Origin: Rhypophila decipiens
Lineage: Eukaryota; Ascomycota; Sordariomycetes; Sordariales; Naviculisporaceae
Reading direction: 5' to 3'
DNA: 64,000 nucleotides
Assembly (NCBI GenBank): GCA_033297075.1
Contig: MU858199.1
Location: forward strand, 1 to 64,000
Shown: one piece after another, positions 41,172-61,033 of the stretch
Numbering within the stretch: the first letter of the stretch is position 1
How the letters are laid out: the number at the start of each line of letters is the position of its first letter
Position numbers and translations under genes: made by a program
Notes under the pieces: model-generated
What the model was told of the DNA's origin: nothing
What the model saw: the letters and a program-made list of their open reading frames with translations, nothing else
Databases searched by the model: none

Positions 41172-41644
41172 TTTGGAAGATCTGCCGTGATGCTGTCAAG
41201 AAGCGAGGTGAGTCAGAGGTCGGTCTGATGTCAAGGACCGTGATTGTTAGCATCCTCTTGGCGAATACCAGGCGAGGATTCGACCTGCATATATCACCTG
41301 ACTGGCCAGAATCAGGCCAAGTTGCTCCAGCGTCGACAACAAGACATGGAAGGACAACAGTACATCTTGGTCTTGACCGCTTGCCTGCTTCAGTATGCTC
41401 TCGATCGAGGCTGGGACCTGTCAACTGGAAAGGCAAATCTGATCATGAAAGATGAGTGTATAAGCCTATATCCGTATCATGTCATGAGGAATGATGACAG
41501 ATGCACGTGATGATTCCTGCACCATTAGGCTCCAACCCTGGTCTCATCAGTCTTCCTGCCCAGTGGTTACAGCCAAACTCTTCTCTCCAGCTTGATCTTG
41601 AATCCCCATATCCATTGACTACAAGATCTGGATATACAAGAAAA
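41172..41644. other. Intergenic between divergent NLR and F-box genes
   Basis: Contains both promoters. The frame upstream of the F-box ATG is open back to 41501 but is not considered coding. Confidence 0.5.
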
Positions 41645-43192
41645 ATGACAAGTCTTCACCACCTTGCACCAGAGCTCCTAATCCAGATACTCTCCTCTAT
41701 CGACTCGCCAGCAGGCCTCTGCTCTCTTGTCGCGGCATCGTCGGCATGTTTTCGAACATATTCCTTGTACCAGGGACCCATACTCCTCCAAGTTCTAGTC
41801 AACTCGCTCTCGCCACAACTGATTAAAGAGCTTCTGGTGATTGCCAACCGCCCCAGATTAAGATCCAACCATGACAATTCCATCCATCTCCTCGGGCCCT
41901 TTGTCGAGCGGTACTTCTCGATCGAGCCGGTTGCTTTTCCACTATACAACATTGATATTGTCTCGGTACGCCGGGCATATTCTGCCGTTAACCGCCTCAC
42001 AAACATCTATTTCACTCACGCCACGGCGCCCCTGATGTATTTCGACAAGACGAACCATCCTGGCGAGGAACCGCCAAGGTTTCTTCCCCTCTCGGCCGCA
42101 GAAAGAGACCGGATTCAACGGGCCTTTTACAGATATGAGCTATACTCTCAGCTCTTCCCCCAAGGCGACTCGGAAAGAGCCAGAGACCCTCCCAGAGAGG
42201 CAATGACGCAGTTCAATCTCTTTCTCCGCCACATGACTCCATGGGAACTAGAAGAGCTTGCGTGCGTCCACCATTTCCTGGTCAACATGATCGACGGCTT
42301 CATGGAAGACGTCGAGGACGAGATTTTTGACACTGAAGTGTCGTGTCCTGGTGTTCGCGGAGAATCAAATTGCCGTCCCTGCCGCTGGTCGCTTTCTGAC
42401 TTGAACCGGATAACTACTGTTGGCCCTCGACGGATTGTGTTTCCGGCATCATGCTCGTTTCCAGTTCAGCGGAAACGTAAGCGGTCCCCGTCCCCGTCTC
42501 CGACTGACCCGATATATCCCTCGCGGTATCGACCAAGTGATGACATCCCCCCCAAAGGGCATGTGGCGTTCAGCTCCTTGGATCAATACGGCCTGGAAAT
42601 GTTTGGAAGAGACTTCCGCGAGAGTGTCAAGTCTGGATTCGTCGGCAAACTGGCGTCTCTTGGTCTTGGATTCATCCTCGACCTCATCGATGCACCCTCT
42701 CCACCGCACAGAAGATTGCTGATCCAATCTCAGACATTGACCGGCCGCGCATTTCTCCCTGAAGCTTTGGACTGCAGACCGAGGAACATGCATGACAAGG
42801 ATGGAATTGACCTGCGCGACGGCCCTACAGCTCAACAACAGCGCATTCCGGCGTTCATTTTTTCTAATAGAGGAGCAAATTATGTCAGTATTTACAACCA
42901 CATGGGTGATATCAAATGGGATAGTCTCCGGGCAATAGGCTATCTGTTCTGGGACAAGGCGCGATGGCAGGGCCCCAGTGCGCAAAGGGCCATGGTGATG
43001 AGCTGGAATTTCGCATCCATCGCGACCCAACAGAGGCCGGAGCGTGGCAACTCCTCGTTGTCTAGGTTCCTTCGAAGGAGGTTGAGTGTGGAGGAGAGGT
43101 TAAGGGGCGTGAGTATCCCTACTGAAGAGATGAGGAGGATTGGGGAGATGTTTGGGGGAAAAGATGCAGTGGGGTTCGGCGATCAGAGGTAA
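41645..43192 (+). CDS. F-box-like protein
   Basis: Single exon, 515 aa from ATG 41645 (agaaaaATGACA). The frame opens at 41501, but the upstream part has no protein character. An F-box-type motif lies at residues 3-40: LHHLAPELLIQILSSIDSP then LCSLVAASSACFRTYS, the LP-ELL-I-L pattern that binds Skp1. The remainder is a helical, Cys-poor substrate-side region (EELACVHHFLVNMIDGF; FGRDFRESVKSGFVGKLASL) and a region MSWNFASIA near the C-terminus, without LRR, WD or Kelch repeats. Large families of such proteins exist in Pezizomycotina. Predicted role: substrate adaptor of an SCF ubiquitin ligase; the substrate is unknown. Confidence 0.75.
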   Translation: MTSLHHLAPELLIQILSSIDSPAGLCSLVAASSACFRTYSLYQGPILLQVLVNSLSPQLIKELLVIANRPRLRSNHDNSIHLLGPFVERYFSIEPVAFPLYNIDIVSVRRAYSAVNRLTNIYFTHATAPLMYFDKTNHPGEEPPRFLPLSAAERDRIQRAFYRYELYSQLFPQGDSERARDPPREAMTQFNLFLRHMTPWELEELACVHHFLVNMIDGFMEDVEDEIFDTEVSCPGVRGESNCRPCRWSLSDLNRITTVGPRRIVFPASCSFPVQRKRKRSPSPSPTDPIYPSRYRPSDDIPPKGHVAFSSLDQYGLEMFGRDFRESVKSGFVGKLASLGLGFILDLIDAPSPPHRRLLIQSQTLTGRAFLPEALDCRPRNMHDKDGIDLRDGPTAQQQRIPAFIFSNRGANYVSIYNHMGDIKWDSLRAIGYLFWDKARWQGPSAQRAMVMSWNFASIATQQRPERGNSSLSRFLRRRLSVEERLRGVSIPTEEMRRIGEMFGGKDAVGFGDQR

Positions 43193-43564
43193 AAACCTTG
43201 GTAATTAGGATCTTGTATGTTTGTGTTGTTTCTTATGCAAAATTTTGCAAGAGCGCCGGACTGGTATTGAGCCCGAATGGTGTAATCTGGAACAATCTCA
43301 AAAATCACCGTTGGCAATTGGCATTCAAGGCCCCGCAGCTGCAGGAGTGAACCCCGAACCCCGAACCCGGGCTTCCGGGTCTTCAGGTGGACTCCCGTCG
43401 GGTGACATGATCGACGTCATCCCAGCCCTCAGCCACTGCACCATCTGGTCTGGTCTAAAACAAGCCCGACATCCCTTTCCAAGTCCTCGACGCGTTCTGT
43501 GAGGGATGCACCAAAGACTTTCATTCCCACTCACGATCGAGTAAAATACACAAAATTGAACAAA
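43193..43564. other. Intergenic
   Basis: 3' end of the F-box gene and promoter of the GH128 gene. A GC-rich patch (ccccgaaccccgaacccggg) lies near 43350. No ORF supported. Confidence 0.5.
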
Positions 43565-44323
43565 ATGGCCCACCTATCCGGCAAACGCGGCCTCTGCTGG
43601 CCAGTCGAGAACCAGAAAACGGCCGACTCGCCGATAATATTCACCAAGCCCGGGTCCAAGATCAGCTGGCTGTACAATTGGTCCCCCCATCCAACGCCTG
43701 GAACCCAGCTCCTGCAGTTTGTGCCCATGCAATGGAACCACGTCAACGCCGACCAACTTCCTTCCCACTGCCAGCGATATCGACCGAGGGAACTTCTGGC
43801 CTTTAACGAGCCCGAGCTGGATTCTCAGGCCAACATGCCCGTCTCGCTGGCAGTAGAGACCTGGATGATCCACATTCAACCGCTACGGCAACGCGGACTC
43901 ATTCGGGCAGGATCGCCGGGCATTTCGTCTGCTCCCCAGGGAGTGACATGGCTGAAGGAGTTCCTCGCCGGGATCCGCGCCCAAGGAAGCGACATCGATT
44001 TCTACGCACTGCACTGGTATGGCCTCGAGCTGGGCCACTTCTACGACTACATCTGGAGCACGTATCACAACCTGGGGCCGAACAAACCCGTGTGGATCAC
44101 GGAATTCGCGCCGACAAACTGGGATGCTGCGAACCCGCTGGGGAAAGAGCATGTCGAGAATTTTTGTCGCGAGAGCATCAAGTACCTCGATGGGCTGGAG
44201 TGGGTGGAACGGTATGCTTTCTTTGGCGCCATGCGGGATACCGGCACTGTGGGCAAGTGGGCGAGGATGCTGGATGACCACGGGAGACTGACCGAGCTGG
44301 GGAGGATATATAGGGATGCATAA
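43565..44323 (+). CDS. GH128-type (Asl1-like) glycosyl hydrolase, catalytic residues present
   Basis: Single exon, 252 aa, start ATGGCCCAC in good context. The frame extends 22 codons upstream to another ATG at 43499, which is less likely because family similarity begins at GKRGLCWPVEN. TIM-barrel landmarks of the Glyco_hydro_cc/GH128 family are clear: WLYNWSPHPTP, EFVPMxW-like FVPMQWNHV, LLAFNEPELDSQAN with acid/base Glu82, DFYALHWYG, and VWITEFAP with nucleophile Glu180. No signal peptide is predicted, so the enzyme may act in the cytoplasm or leave by a non-classical route. Known GH128 enzymes cleave beta-1,3-glucan. It is convergent with a second GH128 protein at 44433. Confidence 0.88.
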   Translation: MAHLSGKRGLCWPVENQKTADSPIIFTKPGSKISWLYNWSPHPTPGTQLLQFVPMQWNHVNADQLPSHCQRYRPRELLAFNEPELDSQANMPVSLAVETWMIHIQPLRQRGLIRAGSPGISSAPQGVTWLKEFLAGIRAQGSDIDFYALHWYGLELGHFYDYIWSTYHNLGPNKPVWITEFAPTNWDAANPLGKEHVENFCRESIKYLDGLEWVERYAFFGAMRDTGTVGKWARMLDDHGRLTELGRIYRDA

Positions 44324-44432
44324 GCTTTGTTACTGCAACGGATTAAGATTAATATTATGGTTGGTACTTGCCATGCAACTACTCTATTCTAGCGTGTATG
44401 TATGAGGTCATTTGCTGTCCAAGTTTCATGTA

Positions 44433-45563
44433 CTAAAAGAACAAGACGAAAACAGCACCGACAGCAAGCAGCGACATGACCAAGCCGTCTATCCTTGCCC
44501 CGCTTGCGCCATTCTTGGGACCGCTTCCACACGGCTTCTCGGGCGTGCAGGCAGCCTCGGTCGGTTGATCTGTGGGAATGGCCTCCAGTCCGGTGGCGTT
44601 GCCGCCGAGATACCACGATCCAATGTCGGTCAACTCGCCGTAGGGGTTCAGCATGGCGGCGTTGGGCCCCACATTGGACACGATGCTCCTGCAGGCGCCA
44701 AACCAGGCATATCTCTCCACCGACTTGGACGCTTCGACAAAGGCGAGGGACTCGTTGAAGAACTTTTGAGTCTTGGGCAGGTCCTGGTCGTTGAAGCCGT
44801 ACTCGATCAGCCAGATGGGGACGCCGGGGAAGCTGCATGTGGTCTACTGTAAGCTTGTGATGGAGAACATTGACGGGGGCCCGGGGCGGGCTTCAGCCAC
44901 TTACGCATTGGCAAACGTCGCCACGCGATCCTCCAGAACGGCCATGTCGCCGTACGATGTGATGGGAATAAAGTCAAACTTGCACTCGGGCTTGGCCTCG
45001 CCATCCCTCTTTCCAGCCGTCTTGTTCAAAATATCGGAGCAATTGGCCAGAAACGGCGTCACCCAATTGTACGGATCGCCAACGATGGGCAGCCCGACTT
45101 TGACCCCCTTTTGTTGCAGGGGAACCGCATTGTTTACCCAACTGCGGGCCGCGATCCGTGGCTTTATCACGGGCCCGCCATCTTCAGCGGTCCCGTCCGG
45201 GTGGCTAAACGTCATGACGTGCGAAATGGCCCTGCCCTTGTCAATCACGTCCGAGATGTTGCCCGCGAAATAAGAGTCTGTTCCGTTTGCCGTACCGGCG
45301 CCCCACATCATGGGCACAAACTCGAACGTCGACTGCGGGACGGATTTGTACGCAGCCGATGCTTCCCATCCAAAGTTGTAGTACCATGAGACGGCCCCTT
45401 TCTCGGCCGCTTCAGCCCAGTATCTGTCGTCGTCGGGCCAATTCTCGTTTGGGGTGAATGCGATCCCACGCTTCAAGTTTCGTGTGGTTGCCGTGTCCGA
45501 GTCGGCGAGGGACGATGGGAGCCAGAGCAGAGCTGGAGCGAGGAGGGTGGTGATTGAGCGCAT
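44433..45563 (-). CDS. GPI-anchored GH128-like protein, acid/base Glu replaced
   Basis: Proposed complement join 44433..44832, 44905..45563 (352 aa); the intron (GTAAGT...CATGCAG, phase 2) joins ATFANA to FPGVPIWLIEYGFND. Signal peptide at 1-20 (MRSITTLLAPALLWLPSSLA). The GH128 fold is recognised from WYYNFGWEA, FEFVPMMWG and the nucleophile strand PIWLIEYG (Glu230). The acid/base motif FNEPD is replaced by FSHPD (119-123), losing the catalytic Glu. After the domain comes a Pro/Thr/Gly linker and a hydrophobic C-terminus (GLVMSLLAVGAVFVLFF) typical of a GPI-anchor signal. It may therefore be a wall-located beta-glucan-binding protein rather than a hydrolase; that is inference from one substitution. 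Confidence 0.85.
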
Positions 45564-46591
45564 CGTTGTGGAGATGGGTCGCGAATCGAGATGGTCGGGT
45601 TGCGGCGATCGCGTCGTGTCAGCCAAGAAGGAAAAAAACGAGTGAATGGGCAAACCGAACAGAGGGATCGATGGGTCGGACTGAGGCTATTCGGACATGG
45701 TAAGAATACAACTTCTTCGACGCTTGGCCAATCGACTCAAAGACAAAGCAGTGTTGTCAGTGTTCTCTTCGGAGAGAAAACAAATGTTCACGATGCTGTG
45801 AGGCCCAGAACGCCAGCGAACTCCCGTCGCTGACCAGCTTCAGCTGTGCCACAGCATGTTTTCCCTGAAGCGGATCATCTTGGCAAGGAAGATTGGCGCT
45901 GGAGATGGATGGTGATTCGCTGCATCGCCGGCGCTATTGAAATGAACCCTGTTCAGCGACTCAGGAGTCAGGGGCAGGGGGGCGCTGTCAGTGACGGCTG
46001 AGATCCACTTTTGGCGTGTTAACAGTTACCTGCTGGATGGCACTCACGTGGTACTGGTTCATCCCCGGGACCCCGATACAAAAACACAAAAACAAAGACA
46101 ACAAAAGGGACGATGATGTTGATGTTTGTGCATCACATTGTCGCTCTCGATGTTCTGTTTGTTTCGCCTCACTTGCAGACCGAAGCTCGGGACAAGGGTC
46201 ATTTGCATCACCCAGCTTCCTGCTGACTGCCGAAGTGCGAATAGCTTCATCCCCCGGTTGGTCTCTTTGTCCCCTCTCCATGTATGTTTCGCCTACCATA
46301 GATATGGCGAACGAGATGTCGACTCACCTGGCTTGGGCAAAGGTGAAATGGATGTGGCTGCATGAGCTGAGAAGGTGGCTGAGGCAGTGTTCTGTGATGG
46401 CTGCATCTACGGATCAAATGCGGACGAGGCTCTCTGCAGACCGCTACAAAGTGACTACCCCCCTCCGTTCATCGTGAGTCACAAGACATCATGCTTGTTA
46501 TGACGATCTCTCTTCACCATCTTGGCGCTCAGGAATACCTAACACAGCGATTAAATCCTGAACGGTCCCCTTAAGCCTGCACCTGGTCACC
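45564..46591. other. Intergenic, 1.0 kb
   Basis: Contains the divergent promoters of the GPI-anchored GH128 gene and the gene at 46592. A 153-codon frame at 46016-46477 has no upstream support or domain and is not accepted. Confidence 0.5.
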
Positions 46592-47643
46592 ATGGGCGAT
46601 GTGGACCAAGGGCTTGGACTTGCCCTCGCCATCATCGGAATAGCCCTGGGCTTCTTCGGCTATTACATTGATATCGGCGAGTTTGTCCGTTCTTACCTCC
46701 ACGCCGAGCTCCATCTCTGGGCTACAATCACCAAGTTTCAGAGTGCAAAACTCGCATTGACGTCGTCAACAAGGACCCCGGCGGGAGGCAGCATTGGGGT
46801 GAACAGGTTGAGTAAAATGGGGGCTGATATCGAGAGCGCGCTGGCGACCATCTTGCGGGACCCCTCCGAGTCATCCTCCACCAACAACGAACTGCAAATA
46901 CACCATGATAACCGTGACACGGGCACACCGGATCTGGAGGCGCAACTGCCTCCGATGCCATGCTTTTCCTCCCACGCCGTAAAGCTAAAGTGGTCACTGG
47001 GAAGGAAGCGGGTGCTTGAAGCCATGGTTGACGTATTCTGCGGCCAAGTGGACATGTACAAGCAGCTCCTTCTCGCGAACCTGTCGATGCCGGCTCCTAT
47101 GCCCGACATGTCAACGGCAGATCAGTCAGCCATATGGCTCACCGACTTTCGTGGTACAGTCCGCAGGTTCAACATTGAACTCTGCAAAGGTGTTGGGGTA
47201 AGTGACTTGAAACCATTTGACTGACCAGTATCGACCTAATCTGACCATGATGATCCTATCAGAACTTCGTCCTCTGCCTCCTTGTAGCACTCAAATCCTC
47301 CCAAGAGTCTCTCGATCTACTTACCCTGGCCGCTCTACTCAACGGAGAGTTCTGGGTCATCGCTGAGGATCACCATGATCATGATGAGTTGGAATCAAGT
47401 TCAGACCGCTGCGTGATCCAGCCCGGCGTCGATAGGCGGCATGGAGCCATACTGGCGGATACGTGGGAGGCAAACGTCCGTCCAGGGCGCAGATTCAAGA
47501 TGGTCATGCCTACCGGCGATGCCAGCCCCAATTTAGATAAGGAGACGCTGCATGGGCCTTGGGAAAGTATCATACGGCCAATCCTTCCCAACATTTTGCA
47601 GATTCTGGGCTGGCATGGTGATGGAAGGATTCAACTCCCATAA
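46592..47643 (+). CDS. Uncharacterised protein with N-terminal membrane segment
   Basis: Proposed join 46592..47197, 47263..47643 (328 aa). The intron is GTAAGT...CTGAC...CTATCAG, phase 0, joining CKGVG to NFVLCLLVALKSSQ. Residues 6-25 (GLGLALAIIGIALGFFGYYI) are a hydrophobic segment, followed by a helical soluble region with VLEAMVDVFCGQVDMYKQLLL and a C-terminal part rich in acidic residues and His (EDHHDHDELESS). I recognise no domain. The N-terminal layout recalls the hydrophobic helix plus helical bundle seen at the start of some fungal STAND proteins, but no NTPase follows, so that resemblance is weak. Confidence 0.7.
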
Positions 47644-48382
47644 CCGCTATCAGCGTCTGAAGGCAGGTCAACAAGTGACGAGACCACTAGATGGGTTGAG
47701 GACCAAGAAGGTGCTTCGTCCTTGCACTTGGCACCCGCGTATTCTATACTTGTTAGACAGACCACTGCAAGGGCTCAGACGTACAATGATTCACGGTTAT
47801 AGCAGTTTCATAACTCTTACTACTAGTCCTCGCTGGGAAGGTGTCAGATATATCATATCAGACAGTCGTATCAACCTGCCTTTTTTAGCAGTACCCAGTG
47901 CATGATGAAAGATGCCTTGTCCATATCAACCCGGTTAAATGGTGTGTGCTTATATGTGATGGACGGCACAGCCATGTTCCAGCCAACTCTTTCCTTCCCC
48001 ATAGAACCGTTGTTGGACCTGGCCTCCGCAAAAGTACCAAGACGCCACCAACGTGCAGTCAACGGCAATGCTAATCTTGACGTGACACCAAAGGACATTT
48101 AGTATCACGGCCTTGAGGTTTGGAAGCGGCGCAGGTTGCTTCGAATCATGCCTACCTGACCTTACTGGGAGTGAGTTCTGAAAGTCGACTCACATCAATG
48201 ATTGTCATTGGACATACACAAAGACCCCACGAAACCTCTGGCTCTTGGGTGACAGAACATGTCCCCAAATTTGTCCCATTATCAACTTGCACACTCTGAG
48301 ATATTCTATTCGTAGACGTTTCCTCCTCATTCTCCCCGGTCTGTTGCTGTGGTCTATGACTTTCAACTTCATCAAGATTTGA
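47644..48382. other. Intergenic, promoter of first UstYa gene
   Basis: No supported gene. A pyrimidine-rich stretch (cgtttcctcctcattctccc) lies about 65 bp before the ATG at 48383. Confidence 0.5.
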
Positions 48383-49533
48383 ATGTTTGCAATGGAATAC
48401 CTCAAATCCAAGCTTACCAGGGTTGGCAAGTCCAAAAGCTCAACTGTTAGCTACTCACCTGTTTACAAGGACGAGGATGACTCTGTCTCGGAGACGACGA
48501 TAGAGCTCTCGCCGGCTAGAAGAACCAAGCTCAGGTTCTGCTGCAGCGTCTTCCCATGGTTTCTCTCCGCTTTCTTGCTATGTACCAATCTCATCACACT
48601 TGCCCTTATATCTGATAGCATGGTTCATGGTGAGGCTAGCCACAGCACTCACTCAAGGCCTGGCCATGGGATGCATATGGGCGGTGGTTCTTCTCGAGGC
48701 AGCTTTGAGACCGGGTGGGCTACTGACTTTGGTGAGTCGAACAACCTGCATCTTGAACAAGAAGTCCAGTGCGTATATACTGACTGTTGCCAATCTCAGC
48801 CGACGCAAGAGCTTCTATCGAAGTGGTCGAGACCCGGTTCACTGGTGCTCCAGCATTCTACGACAACGGCACCATGTACATTCCCCATCCCGACCCTGTT
48901 CGCTACACCGGAGACCCGCGCAAGTACCCGGAAGTGGATGTCAACTGGGAGAAGCTGCTAGCTGGTAAGTGTGATATCTTGTGTCTCCAGACTCATTTGT
49001 GTGATAGTTCCCTAACCCGTTTGCAAGGTCGTTATTTCCGAGTCACGGCCGAGGAAGCGAAAGCAACTTTTGGCAAGGACTGGCATGACTATTTCGACCC
49101 CAAGTACGGAGCCTATCTCACAGGCATCGACATGTTTCATACCCTGCACTGCATTGTGAGTATATGCTGCTCCATCACGGCCTTACACCTGGCACTCGTC
49201 TTGACTGACACACGAGCCAAACAGAACCACATCCGAAGAGAGTATTATCCAGACTACTACGAAGACGGCAAGTACGAGGATCAGCACGAGGTGGAAATGC
49301 ACAGAGACCACTGCCTAGAACAGCTGCGTCAGTACATCATGTGCCACGGCGACATGACGCCTATCCCGACCAAGTACTACAAGGGCCTGGGCCGGAACTA
49401 TGTGCTGTCGGATGCTCCTCATACTTGTCGGAACTTTGAGAAGCTGCAGAGCTGGATGATGGAGCGGTATAACGGGAGCACGCAGGTGTTTCCGTACAAC
49501 CAGACTGATTACGATTATCTGTTGGAGGAATAG
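48383..49533 (+). CDS. UstYa-family (DUF3328) oxidase-like protein
   Basis: Proposed join 48383..48731, 48800..48964, 49028..49155, 49225..49533 (316 aa). All donors are GTGAGT/GTAAGT types and frames agree. Introns 2 and 3 (63 and 69 nt) are stop-free multiples of three. Topology: cytosolic N-tail, one transmembrane helix (about 53-77), then the lumenal DUF3328 domain. The two defining HxxHC motifs are both present, HTLHC (209-213) and HRDHC (240-244), and intron 3 falls one codon after the first. DUF3328 proteins of the ustiloxin type catalyse oxidative cyclisation of ribosomal peptides, probably with copper. The pairing with a small secreted peptide gene 950 bp downstream supports that role here; the substrate assignment is inference. 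Confidence 0.9.
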
Positions 49534-50486
49534 TTCCCGCGCGGGCTGGTCAAGCTCTTAGCTAGTCATCGTGGTGCTTACATTCTGATGGCCAATGAAT
49601 AGGGGAGGACCATCTTCTTGGATAAATACTAGTAGTATGAAGAATGCCCTGGTATCCGTAGGATGAACCAGAATACACTACATCATTATGCATGTTAAAA
49701 AGACTCATAGTGTTTCCTGTGGGTTCATTGTTCTGAGAGTAGTACCTGTGTATAATGGCAAAGAAGTTTCATGTTGATGTTGTAAATCTCTTCAGCATTT
49801 ATTTCTTTGCTCAAGAAGAAAAGCCGATACATTTTGGACATGGACAAAGAGCCAAGTACCTATGCAAAGGCACAAGTACCAATCCCAAAATCTTCAAAGT
49901 TGAGAACATGTACCCGAGGCTCCAGACGAAGAAACATATTTAGTGAACCTTCATGTCAAGTTGCATCATTTTAGATTTTTATCAACCAAAGAAAGATGGA
50001 GGACGTCCGATGATGTAAGTAGGCCCTATCGTGCGACAAACGGCCCAATTCACCACCGAGGACTGCAAGATTGCGCAAACTTGCAACTTAAGAGGTCTCT
50101 ACTCGTTCAAGTGCCATGTAGAGCTAAATTCTCACTTTGTCTGAAAGAGCAGCTATATTTCTCTTTGTACATTATCACTTGGGTCACTCTTACATGAAGG
50201 CGAGGTATTGCATGACTCGGAATGGGCAAGGCAGGTGTATTTTGGCTGGCTGCGTGGCTGCTATAAGCTAAGAGTCTTTCCTATGCACCCAGTATCCCCC
50301 ATTGTCCAGACATGTACACAATCCCTCCGACGTTATGCCTATTGCCTCTATCTGTACAGGCATTTTAATATACCAGCGTTGACACTGGAGGTCTGGCACT
50401 GTCAGTAAACCCAGCACGTTACTCGAGCATCTTCTAGTCAACTCACCAAAGACAGGATCTAGACCCTGTGTGAACTCAGGTCAGAC
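49534..50486. other. Intergenic, convergent 3' region between UstYa and peptide genes
   Basis: No protein-like frame longer than about 85 codons; AT-rich in the middle. Additional small peptide genes were looked for by signal-peptide-like starts and none was found. Confidence 0.5.
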
Positions 50487-50681
50487 TTAGACCTTGACAG
50501 CCTCGACCTCGGAGCCAATGCCAAAGGCTCGCTTGGCCAAGTTGAGGGCGCGTCGGGGAGTGCTCCAGTCCATCCAGCAGTCAACGTCGGCTGGGGCGCG
50601 CTGGGCAAGATCGGTGGTCTCGACGGGAGCAGCAACGGCCATGGAGGCAGCAAAGGCAACGAGAATAGTGGTGAACTTCAT
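50487..50681 (-). CDS. Small secreted peptide precursor, candidate UstYa-type RiPP precursor
   Basis: A 64-codon intronless frame with excellent start context (ctttcaaaATGAAGTTC). Residues 1-18 (MKFTTILVAFAASMAVAA) are a clear signal peptide. The rest is divided by basic sites: Q27-R28, R43-R44 and K50-R51, each followed by Ala, as expected for kexin-type processing. The central segment 29-44 contains one Cys (35) and two Trp (36, 39) in DCWMDWS; the tail is acidic/hydrophobic (AFGIGSEVEAV). It lies between two UstYa-family genes. Ustiloxin, phomopsin and related precursors have the same signal-peptide-plus-KR layout but multiple core copies; here there is a single non-repeated candidate core. 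Alternatives: pheromone-like peptide (no match to the WCxxxGQxCW alpha-pheromone type) or a small effector. Confidence 0.72.
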   Translation of the reverse strand: MKFTTILVAFAASMAVAAPVETTDLAQRAPADVDCWMDWSTPRRALNLAKRAFGIGSEVEAVKV

Positions 50682-52053
50682 TTTGAAAGTTTTGTTTGGG
50701 ATCTGGTAAGACCTTTGGGCGGAGGATGGATGGGCTCTGAGTAAGTTGTTTGACTGCTTGGTTATGATCTCAGATGGGTGATGATGGTGATGCTAGTATC
50801 GTACCATCTTGACGGTGGGGACGCCGGCTTATATGCGAATACTTGGTGTACCTCGTACTGATTTCTGCCCCTGTCTCTGTGAGCCTGCGCATGCCATGAT
50901 TGTACTCGTCTTGGGTGGTGAGTGAAACCCGGGTGAGATGGTACTTTGGCAACGAAGCATTGCTAGTATCCAGTCTTGCGGTTGGCCTCATTATCTGATT
51001 CGTAGTATAGCCTGTTGCCATCATTGTTATGCCATGCTATTGACGGACCCCGGCCAATTATCTGACTTCCAGAAATGGATGCAGCATCACCAGCCGCCTC
51101 TCATCGTCTAAGCTTCCATAACCAGGCGACTAACCCGTGGGAACCACCTTGTGGTGCTCGGGAACACACCGTGCCTCACCTAATCCCATCCTACGCTCGG
51201 TGAGAGATTGGACCTTGACCTTTGGATATCACGAATTATTTTACCCGGATAACGTCCTCTGCCACTTGGTGGTTATGGTATAACACTATTATTCTGTTGG
51301 TTTGTTTCAACCGTCTGCGCCACGCAGTCTTAGCAAACTGGTTCGCGGGTCAAAGGACTTGTGATTCCAACGTTCTCTTTCTGCCACACACATGCATTGG
51401 TGTCCATTAATGCCTCCTTTGCTCTGTGGGGAAGGTGCTTACGCCGGCATCCTATATCAGGCTGAGACTATAACACACAAAGTCCATCGTTACCACGATC
51501 AAACATAGCACCTCCAACATTCGCTGAGAGCACAGCCAACGATGGAACATTCTCCATAACGACCAAGTCTGGTTCGAACGGGATCCTTCCTCACAGGCCA
51601 ACGACAAAAGTCCCTAATCCCTAGCTATGACCTTCACTCGTGATCAACATCGAAATAGCCGGGCATTGATTCACTCTGCTAGCTTGGGGCAAAGCTAACC
51701 AGAATATCAAGCATAACGGAAGAGCGTATAATGGTGGACATCAAGAAGCGCCACCAAACCTGGCACGGTGATAGGACTGGACCCGAGGTCTAGATGAAAA
51801 AGGGTCTTTTGGTCACTGAAACCAACAAGACTTCTTGGTGATCCTTACCGTCTGCCTTTTTCTCATCTCATCGACGGCATTGACCCTGGCCCTTGGCTGC
51901 CATCCACCTCTCTTGTCCATTTTCTCAGGCTCAGGGGGGTAGGAAAGTTCGAGCAGTCGCTACTTTCAAATCTCCCTTGTTCCGATCGTCTCCATCTCCC
52001 TCATTTGCAAGCAACCCTATCTTATACTCGACAACTAAAGCGATACCACAGGA
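50682..52053. other. 1.4-kb divergent promoter region of peptide and second UstYa genes
   Basis: The two genes are transcribed away from each other here, so their control may be shared. Visible short elements: ggccaattatc (CCAAT-type, about 51052), ctcacc/ggtgag as a 6-bp inverted pair 18 bp apart (about 51176-51205), and cccggataacg (about 51244). None is decisive. No coding sequence recognised. Confidence 0.45.
50828..50835 (-). promoter_or_regulatory. TATA-like element of the peptide gene
   Basis: The minus strand reads CATATAAG about 150 bp before the peptide ATG, compatible with a core promoter and a leader of roughly 115 nt. Confidence 0.4.
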
Positions 52054-52890
52054 ATGCACCTCCCCACAATCAACTTCAATTTTCTCAAACCGTCAACCGG
52101 CAAAATGAAAGAAAACTCTCCCTCCTACAGCATCGTCAAGCAAGTCCAGGTGGAACAAGAGGAGAAAGAGCCTCTGAATGGCGTGTCCTCCTCCCGCAAG
52201 TCTGTGAGCTGGGCCACTTCAAATTCGTCCTCGGATGGCTCGGACGACCTGCGCTCCACGGCGGTTAAACTGTACCAACTCCGACGAAACAACATCATCC
52301 TCTCCATCGCGCTTTCGATTGCAACCTTTCTTCTGCTCACTTGCCTGACGCTGCTATACCTCCATCCATATTCATCCACTGGCGCGTCGGTCTCGTCCAC
52401 AGTCGACCAGGACCCGCGTGCCAATTCGGGACCCAACCCCACAACCTACGGCCGGGGGTGCGGATCGTCCATAGCTCAAGCCAAAGCCTTCAACTGCCGC
52501 TTCGACATCCTCTCCAAGGCCTGGCTCCCGCAGGAATGCACCGACCTGGGAAACGACGAGTACCTGACCGACAGCTGGTCGTGGAACCATACCGGCTGGG
52601 GCATATACGCAGACCGATGGCAGACCCGAGAGCTCACGCTCGAAGAGCTCTCGCAGTATGCCGACTCGGGCCTCAAATGGTACGGCACCGAGAGGGAGCA
52701 TCTCGTGCATTGTGCATGGGGGCTGAAACGGGTGCTGGACGCGTTTTGGCATGGCAAGAAGCTCGACTTTGTCATTCAGCAGCTGCACCATACCACCCAC
52801 TGCGTAGACCGCTTGTATATGAGCGCCATCAAGGCCGATGGGCTGGATATTGTCCTGGGCAAGGGAAATGTTAGGTTTGGTCATTGTTGA
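52054..52890 (+). CDS. Second UstYa-family protein, divergent subfamily
   Basis: Single exon, 278 aa; a second in-frame ATG at 52105 may be the real start. Cytosolic Ser/Glu-rich tail, transmembrane helix at about 81-103 (ILSIALSIATFLLLTCLTLL), then a lumenal domain with CGSSIAQAKAFNCRFDI, KAWLPQECTD and WGIYADRW, the signature of the second, Cys-richer branch of UstYa-like proteins. Two HxxHC motifs are present: HLVHC (216-220) and HTTHC (246-250). Fungal RiPP clusters commonly carry two or more UstYa-like proteins, some acting in pairs, so this one and the gene at 48383 could act together on one peptide. The protein ends soon after the second motif, a short C-terminus for the family. Confidence 0.87.
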   Translation: MHLPTINFNFLKPSTGKMKENSPSYSIVKQVQVEQEEKEPLNGVSSSRKSVSWATSNSSSDGSDDLRSTAVKLYQLRRNNIILSIALSIATFLLLTCLTLLYLHPYSSTGASVSSTVDQDPRANSGPNPTTYGRGCGSSIAQAKAFNCRFDILSKAWLPQECTDLGNDEYLTDSWSWNHTGWGIYADRWQTRELTLEELSQYADSGLKWYGTEREHLVHCAWGLKRVLDAFWHGKKLDFVIQQLHHTTHCVDRLYMSAIKADGLDIVLGKGNVRFGHC

Positions 52891-53078
52891 TCTATGCGTC
52901 TGTTAACATCAGAAACCTCATGGATTAGCCTTGGCGGTTGTGTGAATGGTTATTCGAGACTGAAAGATTAGTCCGAAGACAAAGTGTCTGGATATTGGAA
53001 AGAAATACAAAGTACCCCATATGTCGCATAGCTGGTCAGATTGTTACTTATCGTATAAAGCCTCGAGCCCATCTGCCC

Positions 53079-54835
53079 TCAATTGTCTGTCACCTGCTCC
53101 TTGCCCATGCCCCCACGCAAAATAGCAACCTGCTTCTGGATCTCGACCCAAAGGACCAGGTCCTTGATATCACGACGTTGAGCACCAGCATCATCCCTCG
53201 GCCAAACATCAACCCATTCGATTCCCTCCTCGTCGTCTTCTTCATCTTCCGACTCCGTGTCGTCCACAATCGTGAGCTTCTCAAACTCGCGCTCGTCAAA
53301 GCCACTGTCTGTCTTCTCGCCTCCGCGCCGGGCAATGGCCAGCAGAGCTGCTACAAAGGCCTCCTGCATGTAGGCGAAGCTGAAGCCGTCCGTGATGTCG
53401 GCAATTGCCTTGCATAGCTCGTCGGGGAATTCAATGTCCTTGTTGTCTGCTAGCTTCTCCTGCCAGAACTTGGAGTAGGCAATGCGCTGGTCCACGTCTG
53501 GGTCGGGGAACAGGTACTTTCTGTCGAAGCGCGAGGGGCGTTTCTGATGCAATGAGGATCAATATCAGTCAATCGGGAACGATAGACATGGCTACTTACC
53601 GAGATACCGGGATCCAGACGATCGAGATGATTGGTGCTGCCAATCATGAAAATGCCGTCATTTCCCTTGAGCCCGTCCACCTCATTGAGGAAGTAACTGC
53701 GCACCTGGTCGTTGATCAGCGAGTCCAGATCCTCAAAGATGAGGTAGCACGGCGCCAGCTGCCTGGCCTTGTTGAAGATTTCACTGATGGCCGCTTCTGG
53801 TCCCGCCCACTGCAGTGCAAGCAGCAGTCAGCATCTCATACAACCAGCAGTGGATAAGCTCCAACTTACAGAGACAAAGTTTCGGACATAGAGCGAAGGA
53901 ACCGGATCCTCCCTGGCATACAGCGTGTGCATCATGGCCTTGATGCTGATTGTCTTGCCGTTTCCGGGGGGGCCGTAGTAGATGATGCCGCGTTTCCAGG
54001 GCACCTTGAGTTTGGCGTAGGTGGCACGGGCGTCAAAGAAGGTCGAGTGATCGTTGATGAGGGCCTTCTTCATCTTTTCATCCAGAATGACCGCTTTCCA
54101 GGTGGCATTCTTGACGCTCTGGAAGAGCTCGGCATTCTTGCGCCAACCACCATTGTCGTAGACCCAGATCTCGTCGTGCAGCTCGTTGCCCCACTTGCCG
54201 ACGTCGAGAATGAGGGCGTTGGCCTTGTGCACATCGGTGGTCAGCAAGTAGTTGTTGCGCACGCTTGGGTAGGCGCTGGTCCCGTCGCGGCCGTCAACAA
54301 TGTAGAGGACAAACTCGGCATCCTTCCATTTGTAGAGGAATTTGGCGAACTCCATGCCCTGGGCCAGGAAGCCCGGGGACCCGTCGAGTCGGCGGGCAGG
54401 AGGGACATAGCTGGTCCAGCCCAGAGAAGCCGGGAGATTTCCGCCCGGACCAGTGTCGTCGTCGGCGATGGGCGTGTACGTAGCATGACCAGCAGCAGCA
54501 AAGGCTAGGAAATTGATATTGTACGAGGGCGATATGACAAGATCGAGCGAGGGGTACTGTTTCCTGAGTGCCTTTGCGATGACTGCATCGGTCGAGACGC
54601 GCTTGGCCGAGCTGTGGCCGAAGAATTGGTCCGTTGTGTTCTCGGCCGCACCGAGTCCCCGGACAGAGCTGGAGGCAGTCGAGCGGGGAGCTGGGCTGCG
54701 ATGCATGTGCTGGTGCTGGTGCTGGTCCTGGTCCTGGTGGGGTGCGGATGCCTGGACATTCCGACTGTGCTGGAGACGGAGAGAGGTCAGATCAGCGTAA
54801 GCAACGCCATCAGATCGCCATTGCAAGTCATTCAT
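53079..54835 (-). CDS. BCS1-like AAA+ ATPase
   Basis: Proposed complement join 53079..53543, 53600..53809, 53870..54835 (546 aa); both introns are canonical and phase 0. The start at ATGAATGACTTG is preferred over frame extension to 55033, which adds only low-complexity sequence. The N-terminal 110 residues include a Gln/His tract (DQDQHQHQH). A mixed alpha/beta region follows (AYADLTSLRLQ; FLYKWKDAEFVLYIVDG), then the AAA core: Walker A GPPGNGKT (288-295), Walker B YLIFEDLD (344-351), sensor 1 IGSTN and arginine finger region RPSRFDRKY. The C-terminus is acidic (ESEDEEDDEEGIEWVD). Fungal genomes hold many such proteins of unknown client. No mitochondrial targeting sequence is obvious. It ends about 190 bp from the second UstYa gene, tail to tail. 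Confidence 0.88.
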
Positions 54836-55609
54836 GATGGAAGCAAGTGGGTTGGAGTCTAGAAGTGTTGAAGTTGATGAGCACCTGTCTGCTTGCTGAT
54901 GTTGAGAATTCCGAATTCGTGTTGCGAGTTGGTCAGACCTACTGCGGAGAAGAAGAAGGTCAGGGAGCTGACGTGTTGCCGGGCCGGGAAGCTCTGAAGG
55001 ATCGGTCCTGTCATGGTCATGTTCAGGCAGCACAGTTTCAATCCAGAGCCAGCAACATGAATCAATTGGGCCAATTGAGGAAGCTCCCCAAGCTACTACC
55101 CCGCAGTGGTGCGCGTGGCGCCGCGGGCTGAAGCTTACCTGGTATGATTACATTCGTGTACCCCCAAGTACTTCCTCGGCAGTGCGGATACAAGTTCGAA
55201 TTACACTTGCGAGGAGACCAGACTGGATGTCTTGGTCAGGGGCCCGGGGAACACCAATTACACAATCGAGGGGTTGGGAATTGAGGCGGTGCAACAAGGG
55301 CGGTCTGGAAATTCCATGGCCAAGAGTCTCCTGAACAAGTATGGCTTACTCCCGTCTGTACCTCGTCGTATGAGGTAGTTGTCATTCTGGAAAAGAAATA
55401 TGAATTTTGTACTTGCAGTTTGGAGCAAAAGTACATGTAGGTGGATCATTATTGCACCGTAGTACCTTAAGGGCTTCAAGTTCGCTTTATGCTGACACGC
55501 CAAGCCAACCGTTACAAAAAGAACTCTTGTATCCGTATCCATAACCTCATCACGTCATGACTATCTTACTCATCCTTTTTCCTTTTGTTCATCATTAACC
55601 CACTCTGTG
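54836..55609. other. Intergenic
   Basis: Promoter of the AAA ATPase and 3' flank of the APH-like gene. The minus-strand frame continues upstream of the chosen ATG to 55033 but looks non-coding. Confidence 0.5.
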
Positions 55610-57070
55610 TCACTTATTACTAGTAGAGGTACCCTTGTCTTTGCGGATGCCGACCCTCAGCACCTCCATCAGGCCCAAAAACTCCCTCCGGTCAATGGCA
55701 TCAACCCACTGCTCAATCCTCCTGAGATAGAACCCGGCACCGCATCGACTCACTGCCCCGAGAAAGTCGACCTTGAATGCGGCCTCGACGACCTCGACAT
55801 CCCAAGTCGGCCACAGTTGTCGCATCCTCGTGCTATACACCTTTCTGAGCTGTGTCTGCTCGTACTCCATGAGGTGAATCCAATACAGCTCCGTCTTGCC
55901 TTCGTTGTCGACGCTATCCTCCAGATTTCTAGGCTCCCCGTCGTCGTCGTCGTCGTCTGATATGGTCCCATCACTGACATCGGTGTACTTGTTCCGATCT
56001 GGCTTGGCATCTCGGTCGGCCCCTCTCAGGAACTCTGGGAACTGCGAGGCCACCCACAGCGGCATGGTCGAGACGCACTCCCAGTCGATGATGCCGCTGA
56101 TCTTGTCGTTGCCATCCACCATGATGTTCATCAGACTCAGCTCGTCGTGCCAGAGCACCGTCCGTTCGGGCGGGTGCACAAGCGAGGGCAAGATTCTGTG
56201 CAGCAATCTCAGGAGCTTCCTCGCCACGCGCAGGGCAGCCTCTGCGTACTCTCTATCATCCTCATCCTTGGTGTCGGCCAGCATGGTGGTGTGTTCCTTG
56301 ATGATGACGTTGAGGTAGGCCTGCAACCAGTCGTGGCTCGAACGAAAGGGCCCCCGCGGGATGGGGTAGTGGTAATGTGCCCCAGAGAAGAAGACTGGCG
56401 ACACCACCTGGCCTGGGCCGGGCAGACCCGAACGGTCGTCTAGGTCGGCACGGTCTTGGTCGGTGCATGTCGAGCCCAGGGTGCCAATCCCTCGGAAGCC
56501 TTGGCCCAGGTTGCCCAACCGCGATAACTGCGCCTGGAAATCTGCCACGCGGGCGACAAGCATCTCCTTCCGGGCCATGGACATCTTGCGCCACCGGTAA
56601 TATGCCGGCCGACCGGGCAAGAACTCTAGGAGGATCCACTCGAAGCCGATCTCGTTGTCGGGAGTGTCGTCAAAGGCCACCACGTCGGGAACTGGGATAT
56701 CCGTCCTTTGCCGGACGAGCTGTAGCGTTGTCACCTCTCCTCTGGTCTTGTTCCGCGGCTCGACAGGTAGGGAGATGCGCATCATGTATTTGATTCTTCG
56801 TTTTGCTTTCCTGGGTGACGTCGTGACGGCTTCTACCAGGTACATTTTGTTGAAAGTCCCGGCGGCGTGAAAGGTGACGGTGCAGTTTGGCGACTCCTCT
56901 TGGGGGTCATCGGCGGGGACGTTGAGGTGGCGACGGCAGACTCGCTCAACGGCCTCGATCTCGGGTTCCCGGCCCCAGCGCGGCTCCAGATCGAGCCCCG
57001 TGTCATCCCAGATGAGGCCGTCCCTGCTGGGTTTGTTGCGTGTGTGCTGTAGTCTGGTCGTCATGTCCAT
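55610..57070 (-). CDS. Aminoglycoside-phosphotransferase-type (APH) kinase-like protein
   Basis: Single exon, 486 aa from ATG 57070; the open frame extends upstream to 57391 without protein character. N-lobe features: GTFNKMYLVEAV and MMRISLPVEPR. C-lobe: VLWHDELSLMNIMVD (from about residue 306) and ISGIIDWECVSTMPLW. In canonical APH folds the catalytic loop is H-x-D-x-x-x-x-N; here the Asp position aligned to Asn315 is Glu310 (HDE), while the metal-binding Asp of IIDWE is kept. Activity is therefore uncertain. Such proteins are abundant in Pezizomycotina, their substrates mostly unknown. The acidic stretch SDDDDDDG near residue 375 is low complexity. Confidence 0.82.
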   Translation of the reverse strand: MDMTTRLQHTRNKPSRDGLIWDDTGLDLEPRWGREPEIEAVERVCRRHLNVPADDPQEESPNCTVTFHAAGTFNKMYLVEAVTTSPRKAKRRIKYMMRISLPVEPRNKTRGEVTTLQLVRQRTDIPVPDVVAFDDTPDNEIGFEWILLEFLPGRPAYYRWRKMSMARKEMLVARVADFQAQLSRLGNLGQGFRGIGTLGSTCTDQDRADLDDRSGLPGPGQVVSPVFFSGAHYHYPIPRGPFRSSHDWLQAYLNVIIKEHTTMLADTKDEDDREYAEAALRVARKLLRLLHRILPSLVHPPERTVLWHDELSLMNIMVDGNDKISGIIDWECVSTMPLWVASQFPEFLRGADRDAKPDRNKYTDVSDGTISDDDDDDGEPRNLEDSVDNEGKTELYWIHLMEYEQTQLRKVYSTRMRQLWPTWDVEVVEAAFKVDFLGAVSRCGAGFYLRRIEQWVDAIDRREFLGLMEVLRVGIRKDKGTSTSNK

Positions 57071-57509
57071 GAACTGGTCATGTGCACAACATGAAGTTTC
57101 GGTGATTGATGTGACCGGGAAAAAAACACTTTCACTTGGAAACGCTGCTGCTGGCTTGGTGGTGATGGAATGACATTGTGGTTCACTTCGATTGCTCTGA
57201 TGTCTCAAATGGCAATGTGGGTCTGCTGTAATGGGGATGGAAATCAGGAGGGAGATTGAAAAAAAACCAGAGTGAAGCGAAAGTGGGACTGGCCCACGAT
57301 GTTTTCTGTTTCTATTGGTTGCTACATTGATTGGTCTAGCGCCCTTAGTTTTCACCACTTGCCGTGATGATACGGAGCACACAGGTAACAATCATGAGTA
57401 TCAAACATTGAACCATACCGTACAAACCGCGACGGTGTACTAATAACTGCATTTGATGTCGCGGGAAGTCTTGTCACACCGAAATTCCTGACACCTTTCA
57501 CATTACCTC
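57071..57509. other. Intergenic
   Basis: Upstream of the APH-like gene and 3' of the F-box gene. No separate gene supported. Confidence 0.5.
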
Positions 57510-59188
57510 CTAAAGACCATAAAAGACTCGGAAATGCCTGAACCTCAGTGGCATTAGGTGGTCGTCTGGGATTGGCCGTGGTCTTGGCACCCGGCCCACG
57601 GTGATTTCGCATGTCTCCGGGTCAAAAAAAGTCGTCTTGACCCCCCACTGTCGCCATTGGCTGATTAGCCTCGCGCATTCCTTCTGGTTCGAGTTCTCGG
57701 ACATGATGCCCTCAATGATGGCCTCCTTCAGACCGGTATTTCGGGCCGCGTCGATGAACATTGACACCAGTGACAGCCTGCCCGAACCGAACCGGACCCG
57801 AGATTCTTCCAAAAAACCAAACTTGGAGTCTGGCCTCCAGAAACTCAGGAGAAGGCGTTTGAGTCGCGGCGGAGCGTGGCTGCGCACTCGGACTGGGTCA
57901 GCAAGGGAATAAGGCCCGTGTAAGGCTAGTGTGAGCTCCTCGAGTGCCTCAAAGTCGGCGAATGGAGCGTACGGACTCCAATCCGGCCCGGGGGACGGCT
58001 TTCGAAGCTCGTTCCACCAGTCCAGGTCCAGGCCCGTACACAGGAGAGCGAGAGAACGAAGGGATTTTTTGTGTAGCAACAAGAGGTCCCAAAAGCCAGC
58101 AGAGAAGACCGCCACCCGCTTCTCGACGTCTCCTAGGCTACTGCCATTGCCAAAGTCGATAGCAAAGTGCTGCAAGTTCTTGATGTTGCGCAGGACAGGC
58201 CAAAGATGGTGGTCGTCACCGGCCCAGTAACTGGACAGCGACAGGGATTTCATGTTTGAGAAGATGGCATTCTGTCGAGTTACTTCAGTTAGCCTTATTG
58301 CTCCATACCTTAGTCAAGTCAGCTCCGAGTCCACGCACCTGGCTTGCCGATAGTTGGAGACCCAGGCGGCTGTCAACATTCTGCCAAGCCGACTTGCTCA
58401 ACAGATCCACAATCTGCAAGGCCTCAAGTCTGGGTGCATGCTCAAGTAAGGCCAACAGTTCACCTGCAGGTGATGCCCTGACCCTTGAGATTGAATCCAA
58501 TGGTGGAAGCCATTCCCGAGGTGATTCCGTGATTCTAGCCCTTGTTTCCGGTGGGATGAGCTGCGGCCACGATTTTGTGGTTATTTCCAGGGAAAGCTCC
58601 TCCATCTGAGGCATGTATGGCAAAAGCAACTGAACCAGGCCGCTCTCTGCGCCCGCGACTCCTGAATAAGAGTCCCACCACTGGCAAAGCCCCCAAACAT
58701 GAGACAGACAGAGTCTTAGTCGCTTCAGATTGGGCATCTGTCGCAACACCTGGTCCAGAGCGTCCCGCATTGCGTCATTCAACGACAGGTGATTCAAGAT
58801 CAGCTCCAGGGATTGGCAATGCTCGTCGAGATTTCGATTGGACTGGAGAACTGTCAGGTAACTGCCCAGGACTCTGACAACAGATCGCTGACAAGACTCT
58901 AGGTCCCTCATGTTGGTCGGTACTCTGGCATCCAGACGGAAATGCTTGTAAAGGAATGGCGTTGCAACGAGATTAAACTGGCGCGAGACTTTGCACAGAG
59001 GGCTGAAGCGGCCAGGCGGTTTCGTAAAGCATCGTGTGTCCACGATGAAATGTCGATGTCGACACACCATGCAACTCTCTGCTTTGTTCAGTTCTCAGTG
59101 GAATAGGGACGGCCTCGAAGATGTCCATGAGGAGCTCCGAGGGAAGACTGCCGACCCCCATCTGAGCTGGTTCAAGTGCGCCTGGCAC
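57510..59188 (-). CDS. F-box protein with LRR-like C-terminal region
   Basis: Proposed complement join 57510..58271, 58339..59002, 59076..59188 (512 aa). Intron 2 (GTGCGT...GACAG, phase 0) is strong. Intron 1 (59003-59075, GTTGCA...CTTCAG) has a weak donor, but it is the join that restores an F-box: LPSELLMDIFEAV then DPLCKVSRQFNLVATPFLY. The rest shows irregular leucine-rich segments (LKRLRLCLSHVWGL; MEELSLEITTKSW; LEALQIVDLL; MKSLSLSSYW; LEELTLALHG) typical of fungal F-box/LRR proteins. Predicted SCF adaptor; substrate unknown. The start could also be the in-frame ATG at 59161. If intron 1 is wrong, the gene may be frame-disrupted. Confidence 0.72.
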
Positions 59189-59457
59189 TGGGGCGTGGAT
59201 GACGGGTGTTTGTCACTGTTGGGAAGGAGGTTTAAAGGAAGAGAAGATGGGGGAGGCGGGAAAGACGAGGAATATAGGTACTTTGGCTTTGTGGCTGCTC
59301 AAGCCTTTTTTTCTTTTGGCTTTCCATTATCGATGCACCTTTGAAGGCACTAGTAGGTTCAGTGGCTTTCTTCTTTGCCGAGTCACATGCTAATGGTTAG
59401 GTACTTGACAGGTACCCACGTATTTCATGTTGTAAAGTACCGTAACTAGTAACTGAA

Positions 59458-61033
59458 TCAAACAAACACCTTCTTCCACACCCACAGGCTCCTCGAGTTG
59501 GTAAAGTGTTTGAACCCTTCCAAGCCCCATTCCATTCCAATGCCGCTCTCCTTGTGCCCGCCAAAGGGAACATTCGGGGCCACGTCAAAGTGAGAGTTCA
59601 CCCAGACGCTGCCAGCGCTGATCTGACGAGCCATCCTCTCGGCCCGAGCAACATCCTTGCTCCACACTGAGGCGCCCAGGCCCGTCTCGAGGGCATTTGC
59701 CCGGTCGATGACGTCTTGTTCTGACGACCACTTGAGCAGGGGCACGATGGGGCCAAACGGTTCCTCTACCACAATCCGGGAGTCCTCGGGCGGGTTATCG
59801 ATAATGGCTGGCTCGATGAAATAACCCTTGGAGTCCGTCTCCCGGACTCTGCCCTCCAGCGCGACCTTCCATCCTTGCTTGTCGATCTCGGCGTACATGG
59901 CTTTGACAAGCTCGAATCTGGCAACAACACAAAGTGAGCATGCAATCGAGCTAGTGCAAATGCGGAGAGAAAATGACTGGTCATACTGCATCTTGTTCTG
60001 CACCGGCCCAACGATAACCCCGTCCTCAAAGCCACCTCCGGTCTTGATATTATTCTTGGTAAATTCCACCATCTGGTCCCTGAACTGGTCATAGATGCTC
60101 TCGTGGACATAGATGCGCTTGGCGAGCATGCAGATCTGACCCGAGTTCAGAAAGGCCAGAGTGGCAATCTTGGGCAGACACTTGTCAATGTCGACGTCTT
60201 CGCACACAATTGCCGCATCGTTCCCTCCCAGCTCAAGGACATATCTTTTGAGAGTCTTGGCACAGCTCTCTGCCACCTTCTTGCCCGTGGCAATGGATCC
60301 GGTGAAACTGATCATGTCGATACCACTGTGACTGGTCATCCACGGGCCGAGCTCGTCACCACCCGAAAGAACCTGGAACACCCCTGGCGGGAAGATGTCC
60401 ATGGCGAGTTCACCAAGCTTGAGGTCGCAGTAGGGTGTATAAGGCGAGGGCTTCATTATCACCACGTTGCCCGTCATGAGGGCCGGCCCGACCTTGCCCA
60501 TCCCAAGAAGGATCGGCCAGTTCCAGGGGACAACGGCGCCAACGACACCCAGTGGCACGCGGGTCGAGTAGATGGTCTTTTCATCCGTGTCTTCAAGGAC
60601 CTCGTCGACAAGCTGCATGTCGGCAAAGGTGCGTAGCCAGGTGAGGGTCATGGTGATCTCGGTATTGGCTAGTCCGACCGGCTTCCCTTGCTCCATGGTC
60701 TGGAGCTTGGCCAGCTGCTCCTGGTTAGCTTCGATGGCATCGGCAAAAGATCGAAGAAGAGCGGCGCGCTCCGAATGACTGATCCGGGACCAGGATTTGA
60801 AGGCGGTTCGAGCATGCTTCACAGCAATGTCGAGATCTTGCTTGCTCGCCACAGGGACCTCGTACAGGGGTGCGCCGGTTGCTGGGTCAATGGAGTGTCG
60901 AGTGGTTGCGGTAGGGATGAACTCTCCATTGACGACGTTGCCCGGGTAGGTCTTGATTCATGGGTCAGAACTTGGGTCAGGAGAAGGGACAAAGAGGGGC
61001 TCTACAGACGGCAATGTCGATTTTTCTCGCCAT
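59458..61033 (-). CDS. NAD(P)-dependent aldehyde dehydrogenase
   Basis: Proposed complement join 59458..59917, 59978..60951, 61010..61033 (485 aa). Exon 1 is only 24 nt (MARKIDIA), joined by GTCTGT...CTGACC...TCAAG to TYPGNVVNGEFIPTATTRH, which matches the usual fungal ALDH N-terminus. Intron 2 (59918-59977, GTCATT...GCCAG) is a stop-free 60-nt insertion that, if left in, would interrupt the conserved region after NKMQYDQ. Catalytic residues: Asn152 in PWNWP, Glu248 in LELGGND, nucleophile Cys282 in NSGQICMLAKR; the C-terminal PFGGHKESGIGMEWG is the oligomerisation region. It oxidises an aldehyde to a carboxylate. The substrate could be general or part of the neighbouring peptide/O-methyltransferase locus. 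Confidence 0.9.

Follow-up and report, generated by a model that had tools for sequence, protein, structure and literature searches.

A 64-codon peptide gene on the minus strand is flanked by two plus-strand genes, A and B, in a 64,000-nucleotide stretch of Rhypophila decipiens DNA (the window; C155:1-64000 of a 45.7-Mb genome assembly, other contigs of which are labelled C53, C21 and so on). The order is A, peptide gene, B, with spacers of 953 and 1372 bases. With moderate confidence, the three genes are read as a small dikaritin-like locus for a ribosomally synthesized and post-translationally modified peptide (RiPP), in which the enzymes A and B would act on a 64-residue precursor with a single core. 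The product would probably be a small peptide, modified and of an unusual design that lacks repeats. The features on which this reading draws can be seen in the sequence: the gene content, the enzyme motifs, the signal-like start and Kex2 sites of the peptide and, elsewhere in this genome, related loci that carry repeated precursors.

The first-pass annotation had described the peptide gene as intronless, with a signal peptide and dibasic sites; the gene proved intronless, with a signal-like start and the dibasic sites (Table 1). In having a signal peptide, by heuristic scan, and Kex2 sites it agrees with the precursors of Kex2-processed repeat proteins (KEPs) and dikaritins. The start codon stands in the context TTCAAAATG, and the likely core, APADVDCWMDWSTP, may reach N-terminally to residue 18 or 19. 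The [M+H]+ values computed for unmodified peptides are 1593.635 for residues 29-42, 2704.202 for 19-42, 2775.239 for 18-42 and 1305.705 for 52-64. By its codon use the open reading frame (ORF) looks like a gene: among 737 ORFs of 50-90 residues, taken from the window together with 23 fetched stretches, its synonymous score was reached by three and its full score by four, itself included, with a codon table trained on five Pfam-supported window ORFs. A precursor filter that combined a signal start (heuristic scan), a Kex2 site and codon use was applied to 288 kb, where it passed 6 of 2144 candidate ORFs: two repeated precursors (those of C21 and C53), the focal ORF itself, a putative precursor start on C59 and two exon-like frames. 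Within the window it passed the peptide ORF and one other, which resembles an exon of a larger gene. As the filter needs one open frame, it misses five of the seven repeated precursors described below, which are intron-split or have an unresolved start; and as the fetched stretches were selected by their UstYa genes, the window is the sole control not picked for UstYa. Apart from the peptide gene, the ATG-initiated ORFs of at least 50 residues that touch the spacers are 62, 63, 84 and 57 residues long; none of the four passes the filter, and the 63-residue frame overlaps the peptide gene on the opposite strand. Eleven signal-like starts were found in window positions 40000-60000, none of which was judged a better precursor than the focal one.

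Both flanking genes had been assigned to the UstYa/DUF3328 family on first pass, an assignment that held for gene A and failed in part for gene B. Gene A, with three introns predicted by splice-site reading, matches PF11807 at 131.4 bits (E 5.6e-38; curated Pfam cut-off 25), and it lies close to the peptide gene (953 bases), as a UstYa gene lies near the precursor in a dikaritin pathway. The further claim that each flanking gene encodes two HxxHC motifs and a membrane anchor was confirmed for both: the motifs were located and one hydrophobic segment apiece was read from the sequence, so that A and B alike have the motif pair and anchor typical of UstYa/DUF3328 proteins. Among solved structures gene A had one match only, at E 0.93.

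Gene B has the motif; it did not match PF11807 at E up to 1, nor did it match any NCBIfam model. Judged by sequence, it is a member of a separate family outside the Pfam UstYa family. Genome searches with three members as queries gave a set of six genes on four contigs (the focal gene, two on C326, two on C53 and one on C21), which share a conserved block, CGxS...A...C..D. One of five members scanned matched PF11807, at 0.078; a profile comparison with UstYa (hhalign) gave a weak likeness (probability 17%, E 0.0014, 51 columns); and no solved structure matched the family. Four of the six members carry the two HxxHC motifs within a single open frame, always at a spacing of 30 residues, and a fifth has its second motif in the next open frame. 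The remaining member, on C53, lacks the first motif; in a B-type protein of that contig (L023:8115-8879) YIHQC-like residues replace it. A Herpes_BDLF2 match of gene B, with 17.5 bits against a cut-off of 27, was taken as a composition match, and a C13 match to gene B (E 0.025) was dropped, its frames being without HxxHC.

PF11807 genes are present on all four contigs that carry B-type genes, and a repeated Kex2 precursor on all three of the non-focal ones (C53, C21 and C326). Some 33 UstYa places of 20 kb each would amount to about 1.5% of the genome by estimate, and the pairing of B-type with UstYa genes is therefore unlikely to be due to chance. The pairing of B-type genes with precursors is less telling, repeated precursors occurring on 3 of 3 contigs that carry such genes and on 4 of the 13 that do not. 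Because all six members share contigs with nearby UstYa genes, the B family offers a second anchor for the discovery of such loci.

The UstYa genes of the genome provide the context for these comparisons. PF11807 gave 67 exon matches on 30 contigs, that of the window included. Of the 29 other contigs, 16 were surveyed for precursors, a stretch or stretches of each being read, and repeated precursors were found on seven of the 16 (Table 1). The best non-self match of gene A is on C53 (60% identity across 109 residues, reading through a single stop codon), and C306 proteins come next. When 21 UstYa pieces were placed in a tree, C53_5702 and the two C306 proteins joined gene A in one group, whose support of 91/92 is below the value of 95 at which the tree tool stars a branch. 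Most other branches of this tree are weak, 12 of its 18 inner ones being drawn open, and the other UstYa protein of C53 falls outside the group. C53 and C306 both carry repeated precursors. At C53 an A-type protein, B-type proteins and a precursor whose core reads W-x-D-x-S before a dibasic site occur together, and this locus therefore resembles a sister of the focal one. It differs in the four repeats of its precursor and in having one extra UstYa gene and one extra B-type gene.

Aligned with the C53 precursor, the mature focal peptide gives the pattern E-x-TD ... V--W-D-S ... R. This alignment scored 32 and those with the six remaining precursors 14-26, the C53 piece being the longest. The same alignment, and the four repeats of the C53 precursor, would also suit a relic, in which a once-repeated precursor of the C53 kind has shrunk to one copy and the locus is no longer productive. 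That is very improbable: the peptide ORF and the frames of both enzyme genes are intact, and the codon preference of the peptide ORF exceeds that of nearly all of the 737 ORFs.

Characterized systems suggest what a productive locus might do. CctR is a DUF3328 hydroxylase, a membrane-anchored dimer with two coppers per monomer that needs O2, and its activity is lost when residues of HxxHC(x)nHxxHC are changed (PMC12435403). A and B resemble it in having one predicted anchor and this motif, a likeness of motif and not of aligned sequence. From the features set out above we infer the topology of the two enzymes, the peptide as their substrate, their joint action on it and the chemistry. The 64-residue precursor would enter the secretory pathway by way of its signal peptide, and A and B would be membrane proteins of type II, with the paired HxxHC motifs in their lumenal domains. 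There the two may jointly oxidise the one Trp/Cys-containing core, hydroxylating or desaturating it or forming a cross-link. Kex2 would cleave after RR44 and KR51 and a carboxypeptidase would take off the basic residues, so that the secreted product would be ~14-25 residues long.

CctR differs from the proposed enzymes in that its substrate is a non-ribosomal peptide (PMC12435403), whereas the ribosomal substrate at the focal locus is putative. A and B might serve another substrate, either a precursor encoded elsewhere or a non-ribosomal peptide as for CctR, with the peptide irrelevant to both. Nine of the 16 other UstYa-bearing contigs had no repeated precursor within the stretch examined, and this, like the CctR precedent, is in keeping with the alternative. 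It is nevertheless judged quite improbable, as the close relatives of A and of B are found at precursor loci, and no peptide-synthetase domain appeared in the 22 distinct window ORFs, a subset of those in the window, that were run against Pfam.

Five dikaritins are named in PMC10512285: ustiloxin, phomopsin, asperipin-2a, epichloecyclin and victorin. The focal locus is like theirs in the signal-like start, the Kex2 sites, the adjoining UstYa gene and the paired-HxxHC proteins; it is unlike them in that its peptide has neither tandem repeats nor tyrosine, its contig has no tyrosinase match and its second enzyme falls outside the Pfam family. It had been supposed on first pass that exactly these components suffice in the ustiloxin, phomopsin and asperipin systems. 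For ustiloxin and phomopsin this is wrong: both need a tyrosinase besides the DUF3328 proteins (PMC7329392). The 60 tyrosinase matches listed for this genome all lie on contigs other than C155. Tyr-ether chemistry cannot apply at the focal locus, because the peptide contains no tyrosine. In repeats beside DUF3328 genes Tyr is present in 65.6% and Trp in 20.5% (PMC7329392), which makes a Trp core a minority case; within this genome, Trp-bearing cores occur near UstYa genes on C53, C208 and C59. There is a likeness in design to the lichen RiPP clans R1 and R2, in which repeat-free secreted proteins with Kex2 sites cluster with UstY homologues and a single core is named as a possibility (PMC12048977). 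The two are likened by description only, and the lichen clusters differ in holding further tailoring genes (PMC12048977). The titles and abstracts of the literature searched, outside which most subscription journals lie, held no claim of a demonstrated single-core UstYa precursor, which is no proof of absence.

Several results weigh against the dikaritin-like reading. KEPs are defined by at least three tandem repeats of at least eight residues between Kex2 sites (PMC7329392), and the focal peptide has two dibasic sites and no repeats; a repeat search near the gene returned a single chance-like 16-base pair, inside gene A, where the same method recovers the exon-separated repeats of C326. The lack of tyrosine and of a tyrosinase match on the contig count in the same direction, as do the silence of gene B against PF11807, the B-type gene of C53 without its first motif and the nine UstYa-bearing contigs without a repeated precursor. 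The Pfam matches of the window's neighbouring genes were Glyco_hydro_cc, APH and a sub-cut-off AAA, with no known RiPP genes among them. Similarity between the focal peptide and the C53 precursor is weak, with shuffle fractions of 0.026-0.072 depending on what is shuffled, and because seven precursors were tried, homology is suggested rather than shown. The RiPP pathway proposed on first pass is thus retained for the relatives that both enzymes have at loci with repeated Kex2 precursors, and is weakened by a precursor without the repeats or tyrosine of the dikaritin type.

The non-repeated form of the peptide is equally what would be expected of an unmodified secreted peptide (pheromone-like, an effector or a signalling peptide) whose place between the two enzyme genes is accidental and which undergoes Kex2 cleavage at most. 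Its WxxW spacing and an STE2 receptor match in the genome (C47:14454-15227) agree with that explanation, and a pheromone-like linear peptide was kept as a rival because residues 1-27, the signal region, match MF_alpha_N weakly (17.4 bits, below the Pfam cut-off of 22). A genome search with MF_alpha_N gave no matches, its controls being likewise silent. Fungal alpha-pheromone precursors have a core of the WCxxxGxxCW type. This pattern, with 15 matches in the genome versus three for a backward control, all of them single, is absent from the peptide, and none of the 15 is on C155. Pheromone precursors, moreover, did not adjoin DUF3328 genes in the KEP survey, with three exceptions (PMC7329392). 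An unmodified peptide is on balance unlikely. The single WCGFLGRPCW at C26:299038-299067 is a candidate alpha-pheromone core.

It is conceivable, though doubtful, that the dikaritin-like locus represents a RiPP subclass of its own, defined by a single Tyr-free core, by the pairing of UstYa with a distinct HxxHC family and by new Trp- or Cys-based oxidative chemistry. If this were so, repeats would not be essential to such pathways. The broad survey of such precursors required at least three tandem repeats (PMC7329392); if single-core precursors like the focal one are real substrates, surveys of this type overlook them.

Table 1. Positions of the features of the focal locus (window coordinates) and of the repeated precursors on other contigs
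Feature	Position	Strand	Details
Gene A, UstYa/DUF3328 protein	48383..49533	+	316 aa (313 if second ATG); splice-site reading, translation, Pfam
Gene A, predicted exons	48383-48731, 48800-48964, 49028-49155, 49225-49533	+	GT-AG sites
Gene A, predicted single membrane anchor	48539..48613	+	residues 53-77; hydrophobic segment read from sequence
Gene A, first HxxHC motif	49138..49152	+	HTLHC; translation
Gene A, second HxxHC motif	49300..49314	+	HRDHC; translation; 31 residues beyond first in spliced protein
Peptide gene, candidate single-core precursor	50487..50681	-	64 codons, secreted, intronless; ORF, signal-like start, Kex2 sites, codon use
Predicted signal peptide	50631..50681	-	residues 1-17, cleavage-like AVA/A; heuristic scan
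Likely core	50556..50597	-	residues 29-42, APADVDCWMDWSTP; inferred from dibasic site and C53 precursor alignment
Dibasic RR, Kex2 site	50550..50555	-	residues 43-44; sequence
Dibasic KR, Kex2 site	50529..50534	-	residues 50-51; sequence
C-terminal segment	50490..50528	-	residues 52-64, AFGIGSEVEAVKV; sequence
Putative TATA-like element	50828..50835	-	CATATAAG, ~150 bases ahead of peptide start codon; read from upstream sequence
Gene B	52054..52890	+	intronless, 278 aa, predicted anchor residues 81-104; translation, anchor read from sequence
Gene B, first HxxHC motif	52699..52713	+	HLVHC; translation
Gene B, second HxxHC motif	52789..52803	+	HTTHC; translation; motifs 30 residues apart
C53 precursor	L023:9308-9607		four repeats with SAAGVVTWADVSK
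C21 precursor	L043:6128-6478		four repeats, TNSYPKYGKAEDYEAVN
C306 precursor			repeats YNGDDEGADKKKR
C71 precursor			repeats PLYSLTALVGP
C59 precursor	L031:885-1119		repeats GPPPPSWKR
C208 precursor	L040:6500-7130		repeats DADAIWLWKK, KK sites; no signal-peptide start resolved
C326 precursor	L028:3000-4001	-	repeats EYNDNNAVEFKKRGELPTSG, ~one per exon, short introns between

Further observations were made at the other UstYa loci. On C326 one UstYa gene and two B-type genes stand beside the precursor. The DADAIWLWKK repeats of C208, near a UstYa gene, have a WxW core and a pheromone-like look. C59 has a second candidate (L031 ~5500-6043, minus strand), in which a secreted start is followed by VYPEPD repeats in another frame and without dibasic sites, and at the UstYa locus of C167 a Cys-rich ORF looks secreted and contains a single KR site (L037:5955-6332, minus strand). 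The 60 tyrosinase exon matches listed for the genome are seemingly many, and one of them (C58:57781-57885) has a UstYa match ~4.4 kb away (C58:62267). A tblastn search of the peptide against plasmid records, as distinct from a fungal chromosome collection, gave no match. In its own genome the peptide had, besides itself, a weak match on C8 (E 0.055), which was rejected, as no such precursor was among the C8 ORFs listed.

Elsewhere in the window, aldehyde dehydrogenase and O-methyltransferase ORFs lie at 59461-63064 on the minus strand, ~6.6-10 kb past gene B; their membership of the locus is neither supported nor excluded. A 1654-residue ORF at 36034-40995 (minus strand) has patatin-like, NPHP3/NACHT-type and ankyrin-repeat matches. 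At 97-1418, about ten 126-base tandem repeats lie within an open frame, presumably of TPR-like character from its look.

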